Below, piece by piece: positions 4,695 to 56,644 of a stretch of DNA of 64,000 nt. Source of the DNA: Bryobacterales bacterium (lineage in GTDB: Bacteria; Acidobacteriota; Terriglobia; Bryobacterales; Bryobacteraceae); contig PLOR01000097.1 in the NCBI GenBank assembly GCA_003142185.1, forward strand, positions 63,523-127,522, given 5' to 3'. Under the pieces are notes generated by a model that made no database searches, was not told the origin of the DNA, and was given only the letters and a program-made list of their open reading frames with translations. The stretch's first letter is position 1; the number at the start of each line of letters is the position of its first letter. The position numbers and the translations under genes are program-made.

Positions 4695-5454
4695 CGGGCC
4701 CGGGCGGGCGCACGCGCCCTCCGAGCGCACCGACTTCCTCTTCCGTCAGTCGCCGCCACTTGCCGATCGCGAGGTCCGCGATGCGGACCGGGCCGATCGC
4801 GGTGCGGACAAGTTTCAGCACGCGGCTGCCGGCGGCTTCGACCATGCGCCGCACCTGCCGGTTACGGCCTTCGGTGAGGATGATTTCGATAAACGTGTGC
4901 CTCGCGCCGTCGCGCAGCCGGCGCACCTCGGCCGGGCGGGTTGGGCCGTCGTTCAGTTCGATGCCGCGGCGCAGGCGCTCGATTTGCTCCTCGCTGAGCA
5001 GTGTCGCGGTTTTCGCCTGGTAGGTTTTGGGCACCAGGTGCGCGGGGCTGGTGACGTGGTCGGCGAAGGCGGTGTCGTTGGTCATCAGCAGCAGGCCGCT
5101 CGAGTCCAGATCGAGGCGGCCTACCGGGGCCAGCCAGGCGTCCAGATCCGCGATCAGATCGTAAACCGTGGGGCGATTCTCCGGGTCGCGATAGGTGGTC
5201 AGATAGCCCTTCGGCTTGTATAACAGGATGTAGATTCCGCGAGTGGTGGTGATTGGTTTGCCATCCAGGGTGACCTTATCGCGCGCGAGGTCGATCCACT
5301 GGTCGGGGCTGCGCGCGGTGACGCCGTTGACCGAGACGCGCCCTTCGCCGATCCAGCGCCGGGCCTCGGTGCGAGATCCCCTTCCGGCTTTCGAAAACAC
5401 GCGTTCCAGCGTTTTGAGAACGCGATTATTCGGCTGCTGTGCAGATACCTTCAA
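4612..5454 (-). CDS. rluB: rRNA large-subunit pseudouridine synthase (RluB/RsuA family)
   Basis: A 280-residue RsuA-family enzyme that isomerises a specific uridine in 23S rRNA. It starts at TTG 5454 with AAGGA six bases upstream. Residues ~17-65 are an S4 RNA-binding domain (LERVFSKAGRGSRTEARR). The catalytic segment is GRLDLDSSGLLLMTND, and EGRNRQVRRM is the family motif near the C-terminus. The normal fold ends around RRLTEEEV. The remaining ~35 residues (Ser/Arg-rich) lie mostly antisense to the end of the facing gene and look like stop-codon readthrough into extra sequence. Confidence 0.88.
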   Translation of the reverse strand: MKVSAQQPNNRVLKTLERVFSKAGRGSRTEARRWIGEGRVSVNGVTARSPDQWIDLARDKVTLDGKPITTTRGIYILLYKPKGYLTTYRDPENRPTVYDLIADLDAWLAPVGRLDLDSSGLLLMTNDTAFADHVTSPAHLVPKTYQAKTATLLSEEQIERLRRGIELNDGPTRPAEVRRLRDGARHTFIEIILTEGRNRQVRRMVEAAGSRVLKLVRTAIGPVRIADLAIGKWRRLTEEEVGALGGRVRPPGPATSNTSEARPAARSRSRVCSRGRSSKS

Positions 5455-5585: not shown

Positions 5586-6815
5586 TTGATTCGGGGCGCG
5601 CGCCAGCTTCTTACCATGCGCGGCCCAGCGGAGGCCCGCCGCGGATCTTTCCTGAAGGAGCCGGGACTGATACTCGACGGATCGGTGCTGATCCGCGATG
5701 GGCTGGTCGAGGAAGTAGGTCTGACGCGCCGGGTGGAGAACCTGAAGGCGGCGCGTGACGCGGTGGAGATCAGCGCGGCCGGGCGGGTGGTGATGCCGGG
5801 ATTCGTGGACAGCCACACCCATTTGGCTTTTCCGCCGCCGGGCTGGGCGCACACTGATGCGGCGTCGGCGCTGAACGCGGTCAAGACATCGAGCGCTAGA
5901 AGCGTCGCCAACCAGATGCGGAAATATCTGCGGGCGATGGCGCGTCATGGCACCACCACGGTAGAGGTCAAGTCCGGGTGCGGGGGAGGGCCACGCGCCG
6001 AGCTGAAACTGTTGCGTGCGCTGTCCCTGGCTGGTCAGGACCCGATCGAGGTGGTAGCCACTTTCCTCCTGCGTCTGCCAGCGCCCGCGGAAGGGCCGGA
6101 TCCGGCGGAGGCAGCCGTGGAGTGGGCGTGTGCGGAGTTCCTGCCGCTGCTCAATCGCCGGCGGCTGGCCCAGTTTGCCGATATCGTTTGGAGCCCCGTC
6201 GAGAGCCGGCAGCGGCTGATCCGGCGCTACCTGGAGACGGCTGCCCGGCTTGGCTTGGGCTGCCGGGTGCACGCCGATGGCGGTGGGTCGCGCGAAGCGG
6301 CGGCGCTGGCGTGCGATCTGCGGATCGCCGGCATCGACCATCTGGAGCAAATCGCGGTCGCGGAACTGGGAGGGCTGGCGGCATCGGGTCCGGTCATCAC
6401 ACTGCTGCCCGGTCTGGCCTTTCACACAGGCAGCCGCCCGGCCCCTGCGCGGGCTCTGCTCGAGGCTGGCGCCGCGGTGGCGCTGGGCAGCAATTTCAAT
6501 CGTTCCGATAGTCCCATGCTCAACATGCAAACCGTCGTATCGCTGGCATGCCGGGAACTGGGAATGACACCGGCCGAAGCGCTGATTGCGGCCACCATCA
6601 ATGGCGCGCATGCGCTGGGCCGCGCGGCCACCGCCGGGTCGATCGAACATGGCAAGCCGGCCGACCTGGTCGTTTTCAACGTCTCGGACTATCGGGAACT
6701 GGGATACCATTCCGGCATGAACCTGGTGCATCTCACCATGAAGCGCGGTGAATTCATTTACCAGGAAGGCGATGTGGCGCCGCTCGCGGCCGAACATCTG
6801 CGCCGCGCCTGGTAG
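5586..6815 (+). CDS. Imidazolonepropionase-like amidohydrolase
   Basis: A 409-residue metal-dependent hydrolase of the HutI branch, which in histidine breakdown opens imidazolonepropionate. The likely start is TTG 5586. Visible are the metal ligands H77-T-H79, GTTTVEVKSG, VHADGGG, IDHLEQ and GSNFNRSDSP, then a typical C-terminal NGAHALG and GKPADLVVFNV. The usual HutI motif KSGYG reads KSGCG here, so the substrate may differ. No other hut genes are nearby. It is probably cytoplasmic, as there is no signal peptide. Confidence 0.75.
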   Translation: MIRGARQLLTMRGPAEARRGSFLKEPGLILDGSVLIRDGLVEEVGLTRRVENLKAARDAVEISAAGRVVMPGFVDSHTHLAFPPPGWAHTDAASALNAVKTSSARSVANQMRKYLRAMARHGTTTVEVKSGCGGGPRAELKLLRALSLAGQDPIEVVATFLLRLPAPAEGPDPAEAAVEWACAEFLPLLNRRRLAQFADIVWSPVESRQRLIRRYLETAARLGLGCRVHADGGGSREAAALACDLRIAGIDHLEQIAVAELGGLAASGPVITLLPGLAFHTGSRPAPARALLEAGAAVALGSNFNRSDSPMLNMQTVVSLACRELGMTPAEALIAATINGAHALGRAATAGSIEHGKPADLVVFNVSDYRELGYHSGMNLVHLTMKRGEFIYQEGDVAPLAAEHLRRAW

Positions 6816-51511: not shown

Positions 51512-53920
51512 TTGAAAACCAGCGCGGAAGTGCTCGAATTCGAATCGCTGCTCCGGCTCGTGGGCCGTTACGTGGCTAGCCCGATGGGGCGCCGTGAACT
51601 GGAGAAGCTCGAGCCGCACACCGGCCGCGAGCGGCTGGTCGAGGATCTGGCCGAGGCCGGGGAAGCCATCGAATATTTGCGATCCGCGGCGCGCCCGCAG
51701 CAGGCGGGCCGCGGCGCAGCCATCCGCATCGACTTCGGCGGCCTGCCGGACGTGGAGCCGGCGGCGCAGAAACTGCACATCGAAGGCGCCGGCCTGGAGC
51801 CCAAAGAGATCTTCGACCTGTTTGCGCTGCTCGATCGCGCCGCGGACGCGAAGTCGGTGCTCACGGCTACCGTTGGCCGCTTCCCGCGGCTGGGGCGGCG
51901 CGGCCAATCGATCGGCGATTTTCGCGCCCTGCTACAGGACCTGGAAGGCAAGATCCTGCCCGATGGCACGGTGGCCGATCACGCCAGTGTGGCGCTGGCG
52001 CGCCTGCGCCGCGACGCGGAGCGGCAGAAAAAGGCGATTCAGGAATCGCTCGAACGCTTCCTGAAGGCGCACCGCGAGGAAGGCATCCTCCAGGAAGAGT
52101 TCGTCACCATCCGCAATGAGCGTTTCGTGGTGCCGGTGATCGCCGGGCAGCGGCGCAAACTGGACGGGGTGATCCACGGCGCCAGTTCGAGCGGCCATAC
52201 GCTGTTCGTCGAGCCGCTCGAAACAATCGACCTCAACAACGAACTGGTGCGGCTGGGCGAAGAGGAAGCGCGAGAAGTGCATCGCATCCTGCTCGAGATG
52301 ACGGACCGCCTGCGCGGCCACGCCGATTCCATCCGCCAGACGCTGGTCGTGATGGCGGAGCTGGATCTGATCTTCGCCAAGGCGCGCTTTGCGATCGAAT
52401 TCGATTGCGCCATCCCGCGCTTCGGCGAGCGGCTGCTGTTGCGCGAGGCGCGCCATCCGCTGCTCGAAGACGTGCTCCGGCGGCGCCAGCGCAAGTCCGT
52501 TCCGGTCTCGCTCGATCTCGAGCGCGAGCGCCGCACGCTGCTCATCAGCGGCCCCAACACCGGCGGCAAAACGGTGGCGCTCAAGACCGTGGGGCTGCTC
52601 AGCCTGATGGCGCAAGCCGCGCTGCCGGTGCCGGCGGCGGAAGCCGAATTCCCGGTTTTCGAGCAGGTGCTGGCCGATATCGGCGATTACCAATCGATTC
52701 AGGAAAACCTCAGCACGTTTTCGGCGCACGTATCGAACATTCGGGAAATGGCGCTCGACGTGACGCCCGGCACGCTGGTGCTGCTCGATGAGCTGGGCGC
52801 GGCGACCGATCCGGAGGAAGGCGGCGCGCTGGGCGTGGCGATTGTGGACCATTTCCGCGCGGCCGGCGCGTTCACGCTGGTCTCCACGCACCTGATGGCG
52901 CTCAAGATCTATGGCGCATCGACGGAGGGCGTGATCAACGGGTCGATGGGATTCGACGAAAATACTTTCGAGCCGACGTTTCTTCTGCAACTGGGGCTGC
53001 CAGGGAAGTCGGCGGGCCTGGAAATCGCGACCCGGCTCGGCATGCCGGAAGACATCATGTGCCGCGCGCGGATGGCGCTGAGCGACCGCGAGCGGGATGT
53101 GACGCGATTCCTCAGCGAGCTGGACCGGCGTGTCAAGGAAACGCAAGCCCTGGAACAAAGCCTGCGCGAGAAGCTGACGGCGCAGGAGCGCAGCGAAAAA
53201 GAAATCGCCCGCGAGTGGGACCGGCGCGAGACGGTCAAGCTGAAGGAACTGGAGCGCCGCACCGAGGAGGCGCTGGCCCGTTTCGAAGAGCACGCGCGGG
53301 AGACCATCGAAAAGATCGCGCAAGCGGGCGACCGGCGCAAGGCCGGGCAGGAGGCGCAGCGAAAGGTGGCCAAAGCCAAGCGCGAGTTGCGCGAGGATTT
53401 CGAAACCACCGTGCTGGCTACCGAGGATGACTCGCGGCAGGACCGCATCCAGCCGCTGCGCATCACCGAAGGGGCGCGCGTGCGGCTGAAGGACGTGCGG
53501 GAGCCGGCGCGCGTGACGCGGTTTCTGAGCAACGACCGCATTGAGGTGGAAGCCGGATTCCTGCGCTTGCAGGTTTCGTGCGACGACGTGATCGAGGTGC
53601 TGCCGGAAACTGGCGGCGCGGCGGCCAAGCTGCCGCAAGGCGTGACTTACAAGCCCGCGCCGCAGTTATCGCCGGCGTTCCAGGAAATCAACGTGATTGG
53701 CCGGCATGCCGAGGAAGCGCGCGACGCGGTGGATGAGTTTTTGGATCGCGCCGTGATGGCCACCGCGTCGCGAGTGCGCATCGTGCACGGCTTCGGCATG
53801 GGCGTGCTGCGCAAGACCATTCAGGAAATGCTCAGCAGCCATCCGCACGTGGCGAAATTCTACCCCGCGCCGCAGCAGGAGGGCGGCGCCGGCGCGACTA
53901 TCGTGGAACTGCGGGAATAG
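51512..53920 (+). CDS. mutS2: MutS2 endonuclease/ribosome-rescue ATPase
   Basis: 802 residues from TTG 51512 with AAGGA eight bases upstream. Order: N-terminal core (LEFESLLRLVGRYVASPMGRRELEKLEP), MutS lever/clamp region, ATPase with Walker A GPNTGGKTVALKT (~347), ENLSTFSAHV, Walker B LVLLDELGAATDPEEGGAL and STHLMALK. Then comes a long charged coiled coil (~510-660) and a C-terminal Smr domain (INVIGRHAEEARDAVDEFLDRA, RIVHGFGMGVLRKTIQEML). It acts on branched DNA or collided ribosomes. The usual Smr HGxG is present as HGFG. Confidence 0.94.
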   Translation: MKTSAEVLEFESLLRLVGRYVASPMGRRELEKLEPHTGRERLVEDLAEAGEAIEYLRSAARPQQAGRGAAIRIDFGGLPDVEPAAQKLHIEGAGLEPKEIFDLFALLDRAADAKSVLTATVGRFPRLGRRGQSIGDFRALLQDLEGKILPDGTVADHASVALARLRRDAERQKKAIQESLERFLKAHREEGILQEEFVTIRNERFVVPVIAGQRRKLDGVIHGASSSGHTLFVEPLETIDLNNELVRLGEEEAREVHRILLEMTDRLRGHADSIRQTLVVMAELDLIFAKARFAIEFDCAIPRFGERLLLREARHPLLEDVLRRRQRKSVPVSLDLERERRTLLISGPNTGGKTVALKTVGLLSLMAQAALPVPAAEAEFPVFEQVLADIGDYQSIQENLSTFSAHVSNIREMALDVTPGTLVLLDELGAATDPEEGGALGVAIVDHFRAAGAFTLVSTHLMALKIYGASTEGVINGSMGFDENTFEPTFLLQLGLPGKSAGLEIATRLGMPEDIMCRARMALSDRERDVTRFLSELDRRVKETQALEQSLREKLTAQERSEKEIAREWDRRETVKLKELERRTEEALARFEEHARETIEKIAQAGDRRKAGQEAQRKVAKAKRELREDFETTVLATEDDSRQDRIQPLRITEGARVRLKDVREPARVTRFLSNDRIEVEAGFLRLQVSCDDVIEVLPETGGAAAKLPQGVTYKPAPQLSPAFQEINVIGRHAEEARDAVDEFLDRAVMATASRVRIVHGFGMGVLRKTIQEMLSSHPHVAKFYPAPQQEGGAGATIVELRE

Positions 53921-54102
53921 GTGGGGCGCCAAGTTAAGAGCGCGTGCGGCACATTTGCCGATCCTGGGCGTTTGGCAGCCAACCGAGTGGACAATGCGGG
54001 GCGGAGTGTATCCTGGAGTCTGGCGGCGACTCGGCTGACGATGCGAGCGACCGACCGGCACTGCGAACGCGTTGACACCAGCGAGCGGAGGAGTTTCGCG
54101 AA

Positions 54103-55140
54103 ATGATTCAAGTCTACGCCGTTGACGCTGGCAATCTCGCCCGCCTCGGGCACGCCCGGCTGCCCAAGGAGGAGATGCTGGAGGACTGGATTGCGAAGGA
54201 CCCCGGGCTTCTCGGTCTTGATGTCGCGATCATTGGAAGGCAGGTTCAAACGAAATCCGGCGGTTTTATCGATATCCTCGCCATTGATCGCGAAGGCGAC
54301 CTCACGATCGTGGAGCTAAAGCGCGACAGGACGCCGCGTGAGGTCGTTGCCCAGGTCCTCGACTATGCAAGCTGGGTCAACACCCTCAGCACCAAGGATG
54401 TCCGCGAGGTCGCGTCCGGATGTGGCAAGACCCTTGAGGCCGTATTCTCCGACGCATTCGGTATCGAGGTGCCCGAGGACCTGAACGGGGCTCATAACAT
54501 GGTCATTGTCGCCAGCGAACTTGACCCATCGTCCAAGCGAATTGTGGAGTACCTGTCCAAAGTCCACGACGTGGGCATCAACACCCTATTCTTCAGTACC
54601 TTCGAATACGATGGGAAGCTGCTCATGGGAGCAGACTGGCTCATGGACCAGGAAGAGGTGGTCACGAGGTCCGTGAGCAAGAAGAGGGCACCGTGGACTG
54701 GGTCCTGGTACGTCAATGTTGATGACTGCAAAGCGCGTACGTGGGATGACTGCCGGAAGTGCGGTTTCTTGGGTGCGGGCGGAGGCCGCATCTATTCCGA
54801 CCAGCTCAAAAGGCTGGAAGTTGGCGCGCCGCTGTATGCCTACCAAAAGAAAGCAGGGTACGTCGGTTATGGCATTGTGAGCCAGGGGGTCTGCCCGGCA
54901 AGGGAGTTCACGGTTGGCGGCAAGCCGCTTTACGAGTGCGTGCAATCTTCTCCTGATCTGCTGCACCATCCGGACGATCCAGACATGCAGGAGTACGTTA
55001 TCGGTGTCGAATGGAAGAAGGCCCTTCCGGTCAAGGAGGCGAAGACGTTCCCTGGTGCGTTCGCTAACCCGAACGTCGTATGCAAATTGAGCGACCCCAA
55101 GACCCTGGACTTCCTCAAGCAGGCCTTTGGCGTCTCTTAA
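54103..55140 (+). CDS. DUF91/NucS-like nuclease with PUA/EVE-like C-domain
   Basis: 345 residues. The N-domain is a PD-(D/E)xK nuclease of the DUF91/NucS type: E27, D57 in GGFIDILAID, E71-x-K73 in IVELKRDRTPREVVAQVLDYASWV, with Q84 and Y88 as trailing conserved residues. The C-terminal part (~from residue 198) has WYVNVDDCKARTWDDCRKCGFLGAGGG and LEVGAPLYAYQKKAGYVGYGIVSQG, resembling PUA/EVE-type domains that read modified bases. A nuclease plus modified-base reader suggests restriction or repair. It faces the Nmad-like gene, with a 26-bp tail overlap. GC is visibly lower than the neighbours. Confidence 0.75.
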   Translation: MIQVYAVDAGNLARLGHARLPKEEMLEDWIAKDPGLLGLDVAIIGRQVQTKSGGFIDILAIDREGDLTIVELKRDRTPREVVAQVLDYASWVNTLSTKDVREVASGCGKTLEAVFSDAFGIEVPEDLNGAHNMVIVASELDPSSKRIVEYLSKVHDVGINTLFFSTFEYDGKLLMGADWLMDQEEVVTRSVSKKRAPWTGSWYVNVDDCKARTWDDCRKCGFLGAGGGRIYSDQLKRLEVGAPLYAYQKKAGYVGYGIVSQGVCPAREFTVGGKPLYECVQSSPDLLHHPDDPDMQEYVIGVEWKKALPVKEAKTFPGAFANPNVVCKLSDPKTLDFLKQAFGVS

Positions 55141-55690
55141 CGTATTTCGGCTTAGCGGTAGCGCGCGAACAACCGCACCTGCCGGGTCGATGGGGCTGCG
55201 GATTATTGGGAGCGCCGTGCACACCTGGAGCATAACCCCGCGCCGACAAGTGGGCGACCAGCCGCGAGATCTCAGCGTCGGTGGCTTTCCTGCAGCCCCG
55301 TGCGCGAATGATGAGGTGTTCCAGCCCCTGTGGGATTCGGATCGCCCGCTTTCCGAAATAGTAGAAGCGACGGGACACCAAGATCGGCCTGGACTCGAGG
55401 CCATGGATCCCGTGGCCCCGCAAGTAGTCGGTGAGGTGCGGGGACCGACGCCGAAGTTCCGCTACGGTAGGGTTTGACTCGACCTTCATCAGGTAAATCA
55501 GATCGTTGGGCTTGCCGGTCCCATTTCCGCCAATCCCCACGACCCAGCTTCCGGGCGCCGCCCAGACTTCGATCGACGTCGTCTTGCAGCCGCAAAGCGT
55601 GCAAGCGTTGCCAGAGACGTGGGGCGCAAATCCCGTATCGTGATCGAGGCGATACACGTAGTGCTTTGCGGCGAGGCGTTCAGCGCTCAT
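55115..55690 (-). CDS. Nmad-like protein (nucleotide-modification-associated domain)
   Basis: 191 residues from ATG 55690. The front, HYVYRLDHDTGFAPHVSGNACTLCGCKTTSIEVWAAPGSWVVGIGGNG, matches my recollection of Nmad2-type domains, predicted in the literature to take part in DNA base hypermodification. The middle (RPILVSRRFYYFGKRAIRIPQGLEHLIIRARGCRKATDAEI) is the same kind of conserved YFG/RGRG segment. Two Cys pairs (C30/C33 and C35, C172/C174) could bind metal. The C-terminal tail is basic. Enzymatic function is unproven; family assignment is moderate. Confidence 0.6.
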   Translation of the reverse strand: MSAERLAAKHYVYRLDHDTGFAPHVSGNACTLCGCKTTSIEVWAAPGSWVVGIGGNGTGKPNDLIYLMKVESNPTVAELRRRSPHLTDYLRGHGIHGLESRPILVSRRFYYFGKRAIRIPQGLEHLIIRARGCRKATDAEISRLVAHLSARGYAPGVHGAPNNPQPHRPGRCGCSRATAKPKYVKRRQRPA

Positions 55691-55719
55691 AAGGCCCGCC
55701 GTCCATTTTAGCCCCGTCC

Positions 55720-56265
55720 TCACTCCGCGTCCGTTTCCCCTTCCGGCGGTTCCCACGCATCCAGCAGCTCCGGGTTTTTGGCGAACCGCTTCAGGACGCG
55801 CAGGATTTCGCCTGACTTGAAGCCGGCGTGGAGCAGCCGGCGGTAGGCGGCGGCCATGTCTTTGTCCTGTTCGAAAAGGCCTTCGCGCACGGCGAGGCGG
55901 TATTTGCGGCGAACCCAGTCCTCGATCAACGCCGTCTCGTCGACGCCCGCATACACTTCGCGCACGGTGCGCTCGGCCAGCGCTGGCGCCACGCGGCGGC
56001 GGCGCAAATCCTGGACCACGCGCGTGCTTCCCAATTTTTCGCCGGAGAGGCGCGCGGTGGCGAAGGATTCGGCGAAGCGGCGATCGTCCAGATAGCCAAG
56101 GTCCTTTAGGCGGGCCACCGCGTTATCCACGTCGGCCTCGCGTTGCGCGCGGCGGCGCAACTTCTCGCGCAGCTCTCCGGTGGAATACGCCCGGCCCGCG
56201 AGCAGCCGCAATGCATAGGTCCACAATCGTTCGGCGTTTAGGCGCCGGTCCGTTTTTTCGGCCAT
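55720..56265 (-). CDS. recX: Regulatory protein RecX
   Basis: 181 residues from ATG 56265, made of tandem three-helix RecX repeats: ALRLLAGRAYSTGELREKLRRRA, VARLKDLGYLDDRRFAESFATAR and LRRRRVAPALAERTVREVYAGVDE. RecX modulates RecA filaments. No recA is adjacent in this window. The extended frame upstream of 56265 lacks family resemblance. Confidence 0.85.
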   Translation of the reverse strand: MAEKTDRRLNAERLWTYALRLLAGRAYSTGELREKLRRRAQREADVDNAVARLKDLGYLDDRRFAESFATARLSGEKLGSTRVVQDLRRRRVAPALAERTVREVYAGVDETALIEDWVRRKYRLAVREGLFEQDKDMAAAYRRLLHAGFKSGEILRVLKRFAKNPELLDAWEPPEGETDAE

Positions 56266-56344
56266 GATCGGGGTTCTTATGCGGAGTATACTTAAAATTG
56301 GCTCGGATAGAGACGGGTGAGCCGAAGGAAACAGGAGACACACG

Positions 56345-56644
56345 ATGGATAAGAACGGACTTTCGGCATTCTTGTTGGGCCTGGGCGTGGGGGTCGGCAT
56401 CGGCATATTGTTCGCTCCCAAGTCCGGTGAGGAAACACGCGAATATCTTCGCAGCAAGGCCAATGAAGGCGGCGACTTGCTGAAGCAGCGCAGCTCGGAT
56501 TTGAAGCAGACCGCGGCCGACTGGGTCGACAAAAGCAAAGACGCCCTGAACCGCCAGAAGGATAACCTGGCCGACGCGGTGGAAGCGGGCCGGCAGGCGT
56601 ATCGCGATGCGCGCGGGCCGCAGACAACCGAGGGGAAAGCTTAG
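56345..56644 (+). CDS. YtxH-domain membrane-anchored protein
   Basis: 99 residues: one glycine-rich membrane helix (FLLGLGVGVGIGILFAPKSGEETREYL, residues ~8-35), the YtxH/gas-vesicle-like motif APKSG-ETR, and a charged amphipathic helical tail. Such proteins are envelope or stress-associated with unknown activity. A second coiled-coil membrane protein gene follows 29 bp later. Confidence 0.85.
   Translation: MDKNGLSAFLLGLGVGVGIGILFAPKSGEETREYLRSKANEGGDLLKQRSSDLKQTAADWVDKSKDALNRQKDNLADAVEAGRQAYRDARGPQTTEGKA

Follow-up and report, generated by a model that had tools for sequence, protein, structure and literature searches.

A NucS-type nuclease with a predicted EVE-like domain and an Nmad2 protein encoded tail-to-tail between mutS2 and recX in a Bryobacterales genome

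The locus between mutS2 and recX

The window (the whole 64,000 bp stretch of a Bryobacterales contig that was analysed) contains two genes, here called A and B, in the gap between mutS2 and recX. Both are real genes. They are convergent and their 3' ends share 26 bp, in agreement with the tail-to-tail pair described in an earlier, sequence-only reading of this DNA. The flanking genes, as named by Pfam, are mutS2 (MutS_V plus Smr) and recX, and these are the neighbours that the same reading had given. The features of the locus are as follows.

54103..55140, plus strand: gene A, 345 aa, ATG start; NucS-type PD-(D/E)XK nuclease at about residues 22-175 (D57, E71, K73) and predicted EVE/PUA-like reader at about residues 197-345; PDC-S11 family
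55115..55690, minus strand: gene B, Nmad2 protein, 191 aa (Pfam Nmad2, AlphaFold model, VIA-align, Foldseek)
55115..55140, no strand: 26 bp tail-to-tail overlap of the reading frames of genes A and B
53928..55741, no strand: variable cargo segment of the mutS2-recX gap; blastn gives no similarity here to G001, a genome of the same genus

The start codon of gene B is an ATG chosen to fit the start of the Nmad2 family. In both genes, conservation is lowest at the third codon position, the pattern expected of selected proteins: identity at this position is 0.42 and 0.36 for gene A (two comparisons) and 0.37 for gene B, versus 0.60-0.70 at positions 1 and 2. A consensus scan of positions 53800-55800, using a consensus that may not fit this organism, found no sigma-70 promoter-like or terminator-like sites.

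The GC content of gene A is 58.2% and that of gene B 62.1%, compared to 66.2% for mutS2 and 66.3% for recX. Both genes are lower in GC than their neighbours, as had been noted from the sequence, but this is mainly a property of gene A. Of the 39 roughly called genes of the window that encode 200 aa or more, gene A has the lowest GC, whereas seven are at or below the value of gene B. By GC, gene A alone is unusual in the window and gene B is not.

When positions 53000-56400 of the window are compared by blastn with G001, the alignment stops at 53927 and resumes at 55742. At the same place between mutS2 and recX, the window carries 1.8 kb with genes A and B and G001 carries approximately 4.1 kb of other DNA with two PIN-domain genes. 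The mutS2-recX gap is variable between these two genomes of the genus. The variable site is described from two genomes because only one other genome was seen to share the neighbourhood: in six other genomes of the same family, no mutS2 was found in the 15-18 kb stretches around recX, and so this neighbourhood is not widely kept. The gap may represent a general insertion hotspot.

In G001, 148 bp from the 3' end of mutS2 are repeated 1 kb downstream (91% identical). At locus L207, the 148 bp copies are located at 5022-5169 and 6058-6205 with a PIN gene between them, and this duplication is a possible integration footprint.

Gene A and its family

Gene A has the Pfam domain NucS_C (residues 23-101; E-value: 8e-8). 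The residues D57, E71 and K73, which had been picked out earlier as those of a PD-(D/E)XK nuclease, are invariant in 82/82 aligned gene A homologues. This alignment comprises the window protein, 78/80 genome-contig loci and 3/12 viral-contig loci. Three loci (L088, L133 and L151) were excluded for stops inside the matched stretch; L147, L148 and L150 passed the stop check yet are not in the alignment, and L152-L156 match only the nuclease part of gene A. The AlphaFold model of gene A has a mean pLDDT of 90.7 and a pTM of 0.60, and because of this pTM the relative placement of the two domains is uncertain. In VIA-align comparisons, residues 22-175 match NucS (2vld_B; Z 13.9, rmsd 1.9, 108 residues aligned) and residues 15-174 match EndoMS (5gke_A; Z 13.9, rmsd 4.2, 115 residues aligned). 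EndoMS is also matched by the model in Foldseek (E-value: 7.5e-6). Classification of gene A as a full NucS was ruled out: it scores 45.4 bits with the NucS equivalog model, far below the cut-off of 216, and only profile positions 129-209 of 250, which cover the nuclease part, are matched.

The remainder of the protein is predicted to form a reader domain. With VIA-align, residues 199-343 are most similar to PH1033 (1wmm; Z 10.8, rmsd 3.0, 117 residues aligned), followed by MJECL36 (residues 198-341; Z 9.9); we take PH1033 and MJECL36 (2p5d) to be EVE proteins. YTH and ASCH domains come next, with Z values of 8.3-8.9. In Foldseek, the C-terminal domain matches 2p5d (E-value: 6.8e-5) and 2eve (E-value: 5.8e-4). 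Residues 199-345 also match VcaM4I (6yex_A), an EVE-HNH restriction enzyme (Z 9.6, rmsd 3.8, 125 residues aligned), and the domain matches PSPTO5229 (2eve) with Z 8.8; both 2eve and VcaM4I are designated EVE in PMC7897488. On these structural matches, which bear out the PUA/EVE-like tail suggested earlier, gene A is modelled as a NucS-type nuclease with a C-terminal PUA/EVE-like domain.

The PADLOC model PDC-S11, a candidate defence family, covers residues 3-344 of the 345 in gene A (E-value: 1.9e-120) and is matched by all 82 aligned members of the gene A family. PDC-S11 is named in two published surveys; the literature searched yielded no report of its base specificity or activity and no experimental test. 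The family is widespread, patchy and partly mobile. Relatives of gene A are found in 53 plasmid records (at least 80% cover in 41), in at least 494 stretches among 595 candidates listed from genome contigs and at 12 viral-contig loci, seven of which have the EVE part. Among 300 related genomes, 51 match gene A at an E-value of 0.001, mostly with the nuclease part only. No relative was found in phages (tblastn, E-value: 1e-5) or in a single-protein viral scan with gene A, and PHROGs gave one weak match. The neighbourhoods of ten of the 53 plasmid records were fetched, nine of them annotated and the tenth unannotated. In 5/9 annotated loci, type I RM-like, BREX-type, N-6 methylase or NACHT genes are located within 6 kb; two others carry a PD-(D/E)XK nuclease whose role is unclear, and no nameable defence gene was found within 6 kb in the remaining two.

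In three related genomes (G046, G082 and G045; loci L019, L018 and L028), the A-family genes are apparently broken by stops or frame changes. The window's own genome encodes a second NucS_C protein (L002, G000:C101). Its nuclease part lies towards the C-terminus, and its match to Shedu (SduA_C) is weak and below the cut-off.

Gene A can be counted as a known kind of protein because EVE-PD(D/E)XK fusions have been described as putative type IV restriction enzymes (Bell, Wolf and Koonin 2020, PMC7641849). Like gene A, these have an EVE reader and a PD-(D/E)XK nuclease in one chain; the main text of that study never names NucS or DUF91. VcaM4I likewise joins an EVE reader to a nuclease in one chain, and it flips 5mC or 5hmC into its EVE pocket (PMC7897488). 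Unlike gene A, in which a PD-(D/E)XK nuclease precedes a C-terminal reader, VcaM4I has an HNH nuclease and an N-terminal reader. In the VcaM4I study (PMC7897488), enzymes of the PvuRts1I family are given a C-terminal modification-sensing domain, the position of the predicted reader in gene A. Compared by description, PvuRts1I and AbaSI are SRA-nuclease fusions (PMC12707154), whereas the predicted reader of gene A is EVE-like. NucS and EndoMS share the nuclease domain with gene A, which has the C-terminal EVE-like domain in place of the rest.

Gene B and the Nmad2 fold

Gene B has the Pfam domain Nmad2 (E-value: 1.9e-22; 80.2 bits against a cut-off of 26.1), and so its earlier description as Nmad-like was correct. 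It is a short form of Nmad2, with model positions 3-72 and 130-194 matched and the middle unmatched. Eight residues (D18, G20, A22, C35, K36, G52, L104 and G113) do not vary in either of the two Nmad2 alignments (A2 and A6; 13 and 9 rows). Neither PADLOC nor PHROGs has a match for gene B. No relatives were found in plasmids and phages (tblastn, E-value: 1e-5) or in viral scans with gene B alone and with its close group. One of the predicted defence domains that DefensePredictor lists as uncharacterised is a nucleotide-modification-associated domain. A search for Nmad2 and Nmad3 in the literature gave unrelated matches only, and the open-licence PMC papers searched yielded nothing on the fold of Nmad2.

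The AlphaFold model of gene B, built with eight viral-contig homologues, has a mean pLDDT of 76.1 and a pTM of 0.72, with the C-terminal residues 163-190 below pLDDT 50. The best 50 of 829 chains in VIA-align are 44 YTH, two ASCH and four small EVE-type proteins, with Z values of 7.2-8.4, of which those below 8 may reflect a merely common arrangement. The top match is 7nh2 (Z 8.4, rmsd 4.3, 137 residues aligned). Three of the 44 YTH chains are presumed by us to be YTH proteins, and three of the four small proteins are likewise taken to be EVE-type. The fourth, 2eve, is designated EVE in PMC7897488. Foldseek gave nothing at an E-value of 0.001 against either the PDB or viral models; the best viral match (E-value: 1.2e-3) is nameless, and viral models named EVE or ASCH match only at E-values of 1.2 and worse. 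The best Foldseek TM-scores for gene B are only 0.35-0.46.

At the sequence level, the Nmad2 profile has no credible match among PDB sequences, and comparison of the Nmad2 alignments with the A family by hhalign gave chance-level matches only and no significant link. A sequence-only connection between Nmad2 and EVE was dropped on this result. Profile comparison of Nmad3 with Nmad2 gave no match, and that of Nmad3 with the A family gave a weak, short alignment (E-value: 0.064; probability 0.9%) that is unusable as proof. With Z values near 8 and no profile link to the A family found, a PUA-like (YTH/EVE/ASCH) fold of Nmad2 is considered likely, with moderate support. Because the model resembles YTH, EVE and ASCH proteins, gene B may be a reader and not a modifying enzyme. 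Gene B had been taken from the sequence to be modification-associated; its model points to a sensor-type fold.

There is a lesser chance that gene B is an ASCH-type enzyme, such as a nucleotide hydrolase or ribonuclease, and not a reader. A Zymomonas ASCH protein accounts for the two best Foldseek matches of gene B (E-values: 7.7e-3 and 9.3e-3; probability 0.93 and 0.96), D18, C35 and K36 are among the invariant residues, and enzymatic ASCH proteins exist (YqfB, PMC12707154). The VIA-align results argue against this assignment, with 44 YTH readers and only two ASCH chains among the best 50 of 829, although the Z values are close. A predicted reader fold is the preferred assignment for gene B.

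Searches with Nmad2 identified 27 Nmad2 genes besides gene B (18 distinct genes in genomes and nine in viral contigs). Nmad2 directly precedes Nmad3 in 5/27 (G020, G021, G039, G285 and G386), a count made with an Nmad3 profile derived from these very loci, so that distant Nmad3 genes could be missed. The Nmad3 assignment is confirmed by Pfam for G021, G285 and G386, and the G020 and G039 proteins are 81-84% identical to that of G021. A search of 396 genomes for Nmad3 gave eight genes, two of them adjoining Nmad2. The closest relative of gene B is the Nmad2 of G021 (52% identity over 177 residues), which adjoins Nmad3. Gene B belongs to the same family (Nmad2, PF18753) but has no Nmad3 (PF18754) neighbour, and no Nmad3 was found in the window's whole genome. 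With only five of the 27 Nmad2 genes next to Nmad3, a fixed Nmad2-Nmad3 partnership was dropped.

The five Nmad3 loci (L194-L198; G039, G020, G021, G386 and G285) differ in how their two genes are conserved. Nmad3 is 73-84% identical across the five genomes, and the Nmad2 of G021 is only 32-42% identical to the Nmad2 proteins of the other four. DNA similarity between the G021 locus (L196, 6567-7822) and the others starts just before the Nmad2 stop. From these sequence comparisons, it looks as if Nmad2 has been exchanged before a constant Nmad3, in the manner of the specificity parts of restriction systems.

Association of the two genes and proposed model

Genes A and B had been proposed to form a compact two-gene module, and a recurring module of this kind is not supported by the loci checked. 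The 102 A-family loci examined (10 from plasmids, 80 from genomes and 12 viral; 1.45 Mb in total; 97 with the EVE part) yielded no Nmad2 reading frame, even at an E-value of 10, and no Nmad3 with a narrow profile. Conversely, a NucS-type nuclease is near 0/27 of the other Nmad2 genes, around which 1.5 kb to approximately 8 kb per side was examined (less at contig ends). A conserved A and B module was dropped as the main reading because the pair does not recur in either set. The one related arrangement comes from 29 looser A-like loci of related genomes (flanks of up to 1.5 kb), a single one of which, in G221, has Nmad2. This Nmad2 gene is located just upstream of a gene (L203, 6859-7815) encoding a fusion whose start is Nmad3-like (20.1 bits, below the cut-off of 27) and whose end is NucS_C. 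It was met through the gene A search and not the Nmad2 searches, and so is not an unbiased draw.

The pairing of genes A and B looks like a local combination. It is unlikely that they form one module in which gene B recognises or processes a modified base, or modified nucleotides in free form, and thereby controls or permits the action of nuclease A. In favour of such a module, the genes are adjacent with overlapping ends, the predicted folds of both proteins resemble modified-base readers, the G221 Nmad2 adjoins a fusion containing NucS_C, and some long Nmad2 genes are accompanied by TIR, SLOG, MazG_C, UDG-like or 5hmdU-kinase genes. Against it are the absence of the pair from the 102 and 27 loci and the orientation of the genes, which converge and therefore do not form an operon. 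In view of the shared 3' ends and of the gene order in G221, a functional link between the two genes retains some probability.

The reading favoured here, and a reasonably probable one, is that gene A encodes a stand-alone modification-dependent (type IV-like) restriction nuclease and gene B a separate Nmad2 protein with a predicted PUA-superfamily reader fold, the two being joined as cargo of a variable site and not as a fixed system. Its steps would be as follows. By analogy with VcaM4I (PMC7897488), a modified base of the invading DNA would be flipped out and received in the pocket of the EVE domain of gene A. The NucS-type PD-(D/E)XK domain would cut nearby, and host DNA would be spared if it does not carry the mark. 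Gene A could in this way serve in phage defence. Gene B would act independently as a reader of, or an enzyme for, modified bases or nucleotides. That gene A is a NucS/EndoMS-like repair enzyme for damaged or mismatched bases, and not a restriction enzyme, is very improbable: its nuclease domain is closest to NucS/EndoMS and mutS2 and recX adjoin, but its score with the NucS equivalog model, on which this was dropped as a main reading, is far too low, its match to NucS is confined to the C-terminal nuclease part with the remainder EVE-like, its distribution is patchy and partly plasmid-borne, and mutS2 and recX border a variable segment.

As a restriction nuclease, gene A would make a defence candidate that is widespread open to a clear test, in the form of a NucS nuclease steered by a predicted EVE reader. 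Of greater interest as a lead is the fold of Nmad2. A wider and more speculative suggestion is that Nmad2 proteins in general are sensors of the PUA superfamily, which would detect modified bases or nucleotides and not make them, be exchangeable between loci and feed a NucS nuclease, Nmad3 or TIR/SLOG proteins; the present locus would, on that suggestion, hold two readers and one nuclease. Should Nmad2 proteins indeed be PUA-like readers, a name that refers only to an association with base modification would stand for a family of sensors, and Nmad2 genes found with TIR, SLOG, MazG_C, UDG-like or 5hmdU-kinase genes could be read as sensor and effector systems.

The neighbours of the long Nmad2 genes are diverse. 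They include a ThsB-type TIR gene (L217), TIR and SLOG genes (L187), MazG_C and UDG-like genes (L214), MazG_C (L189) and a 5-hmdU DNA kinase gene (L215). The long Nmad2 loci are apparently nucleotide-based conflict systems of several make-ups.
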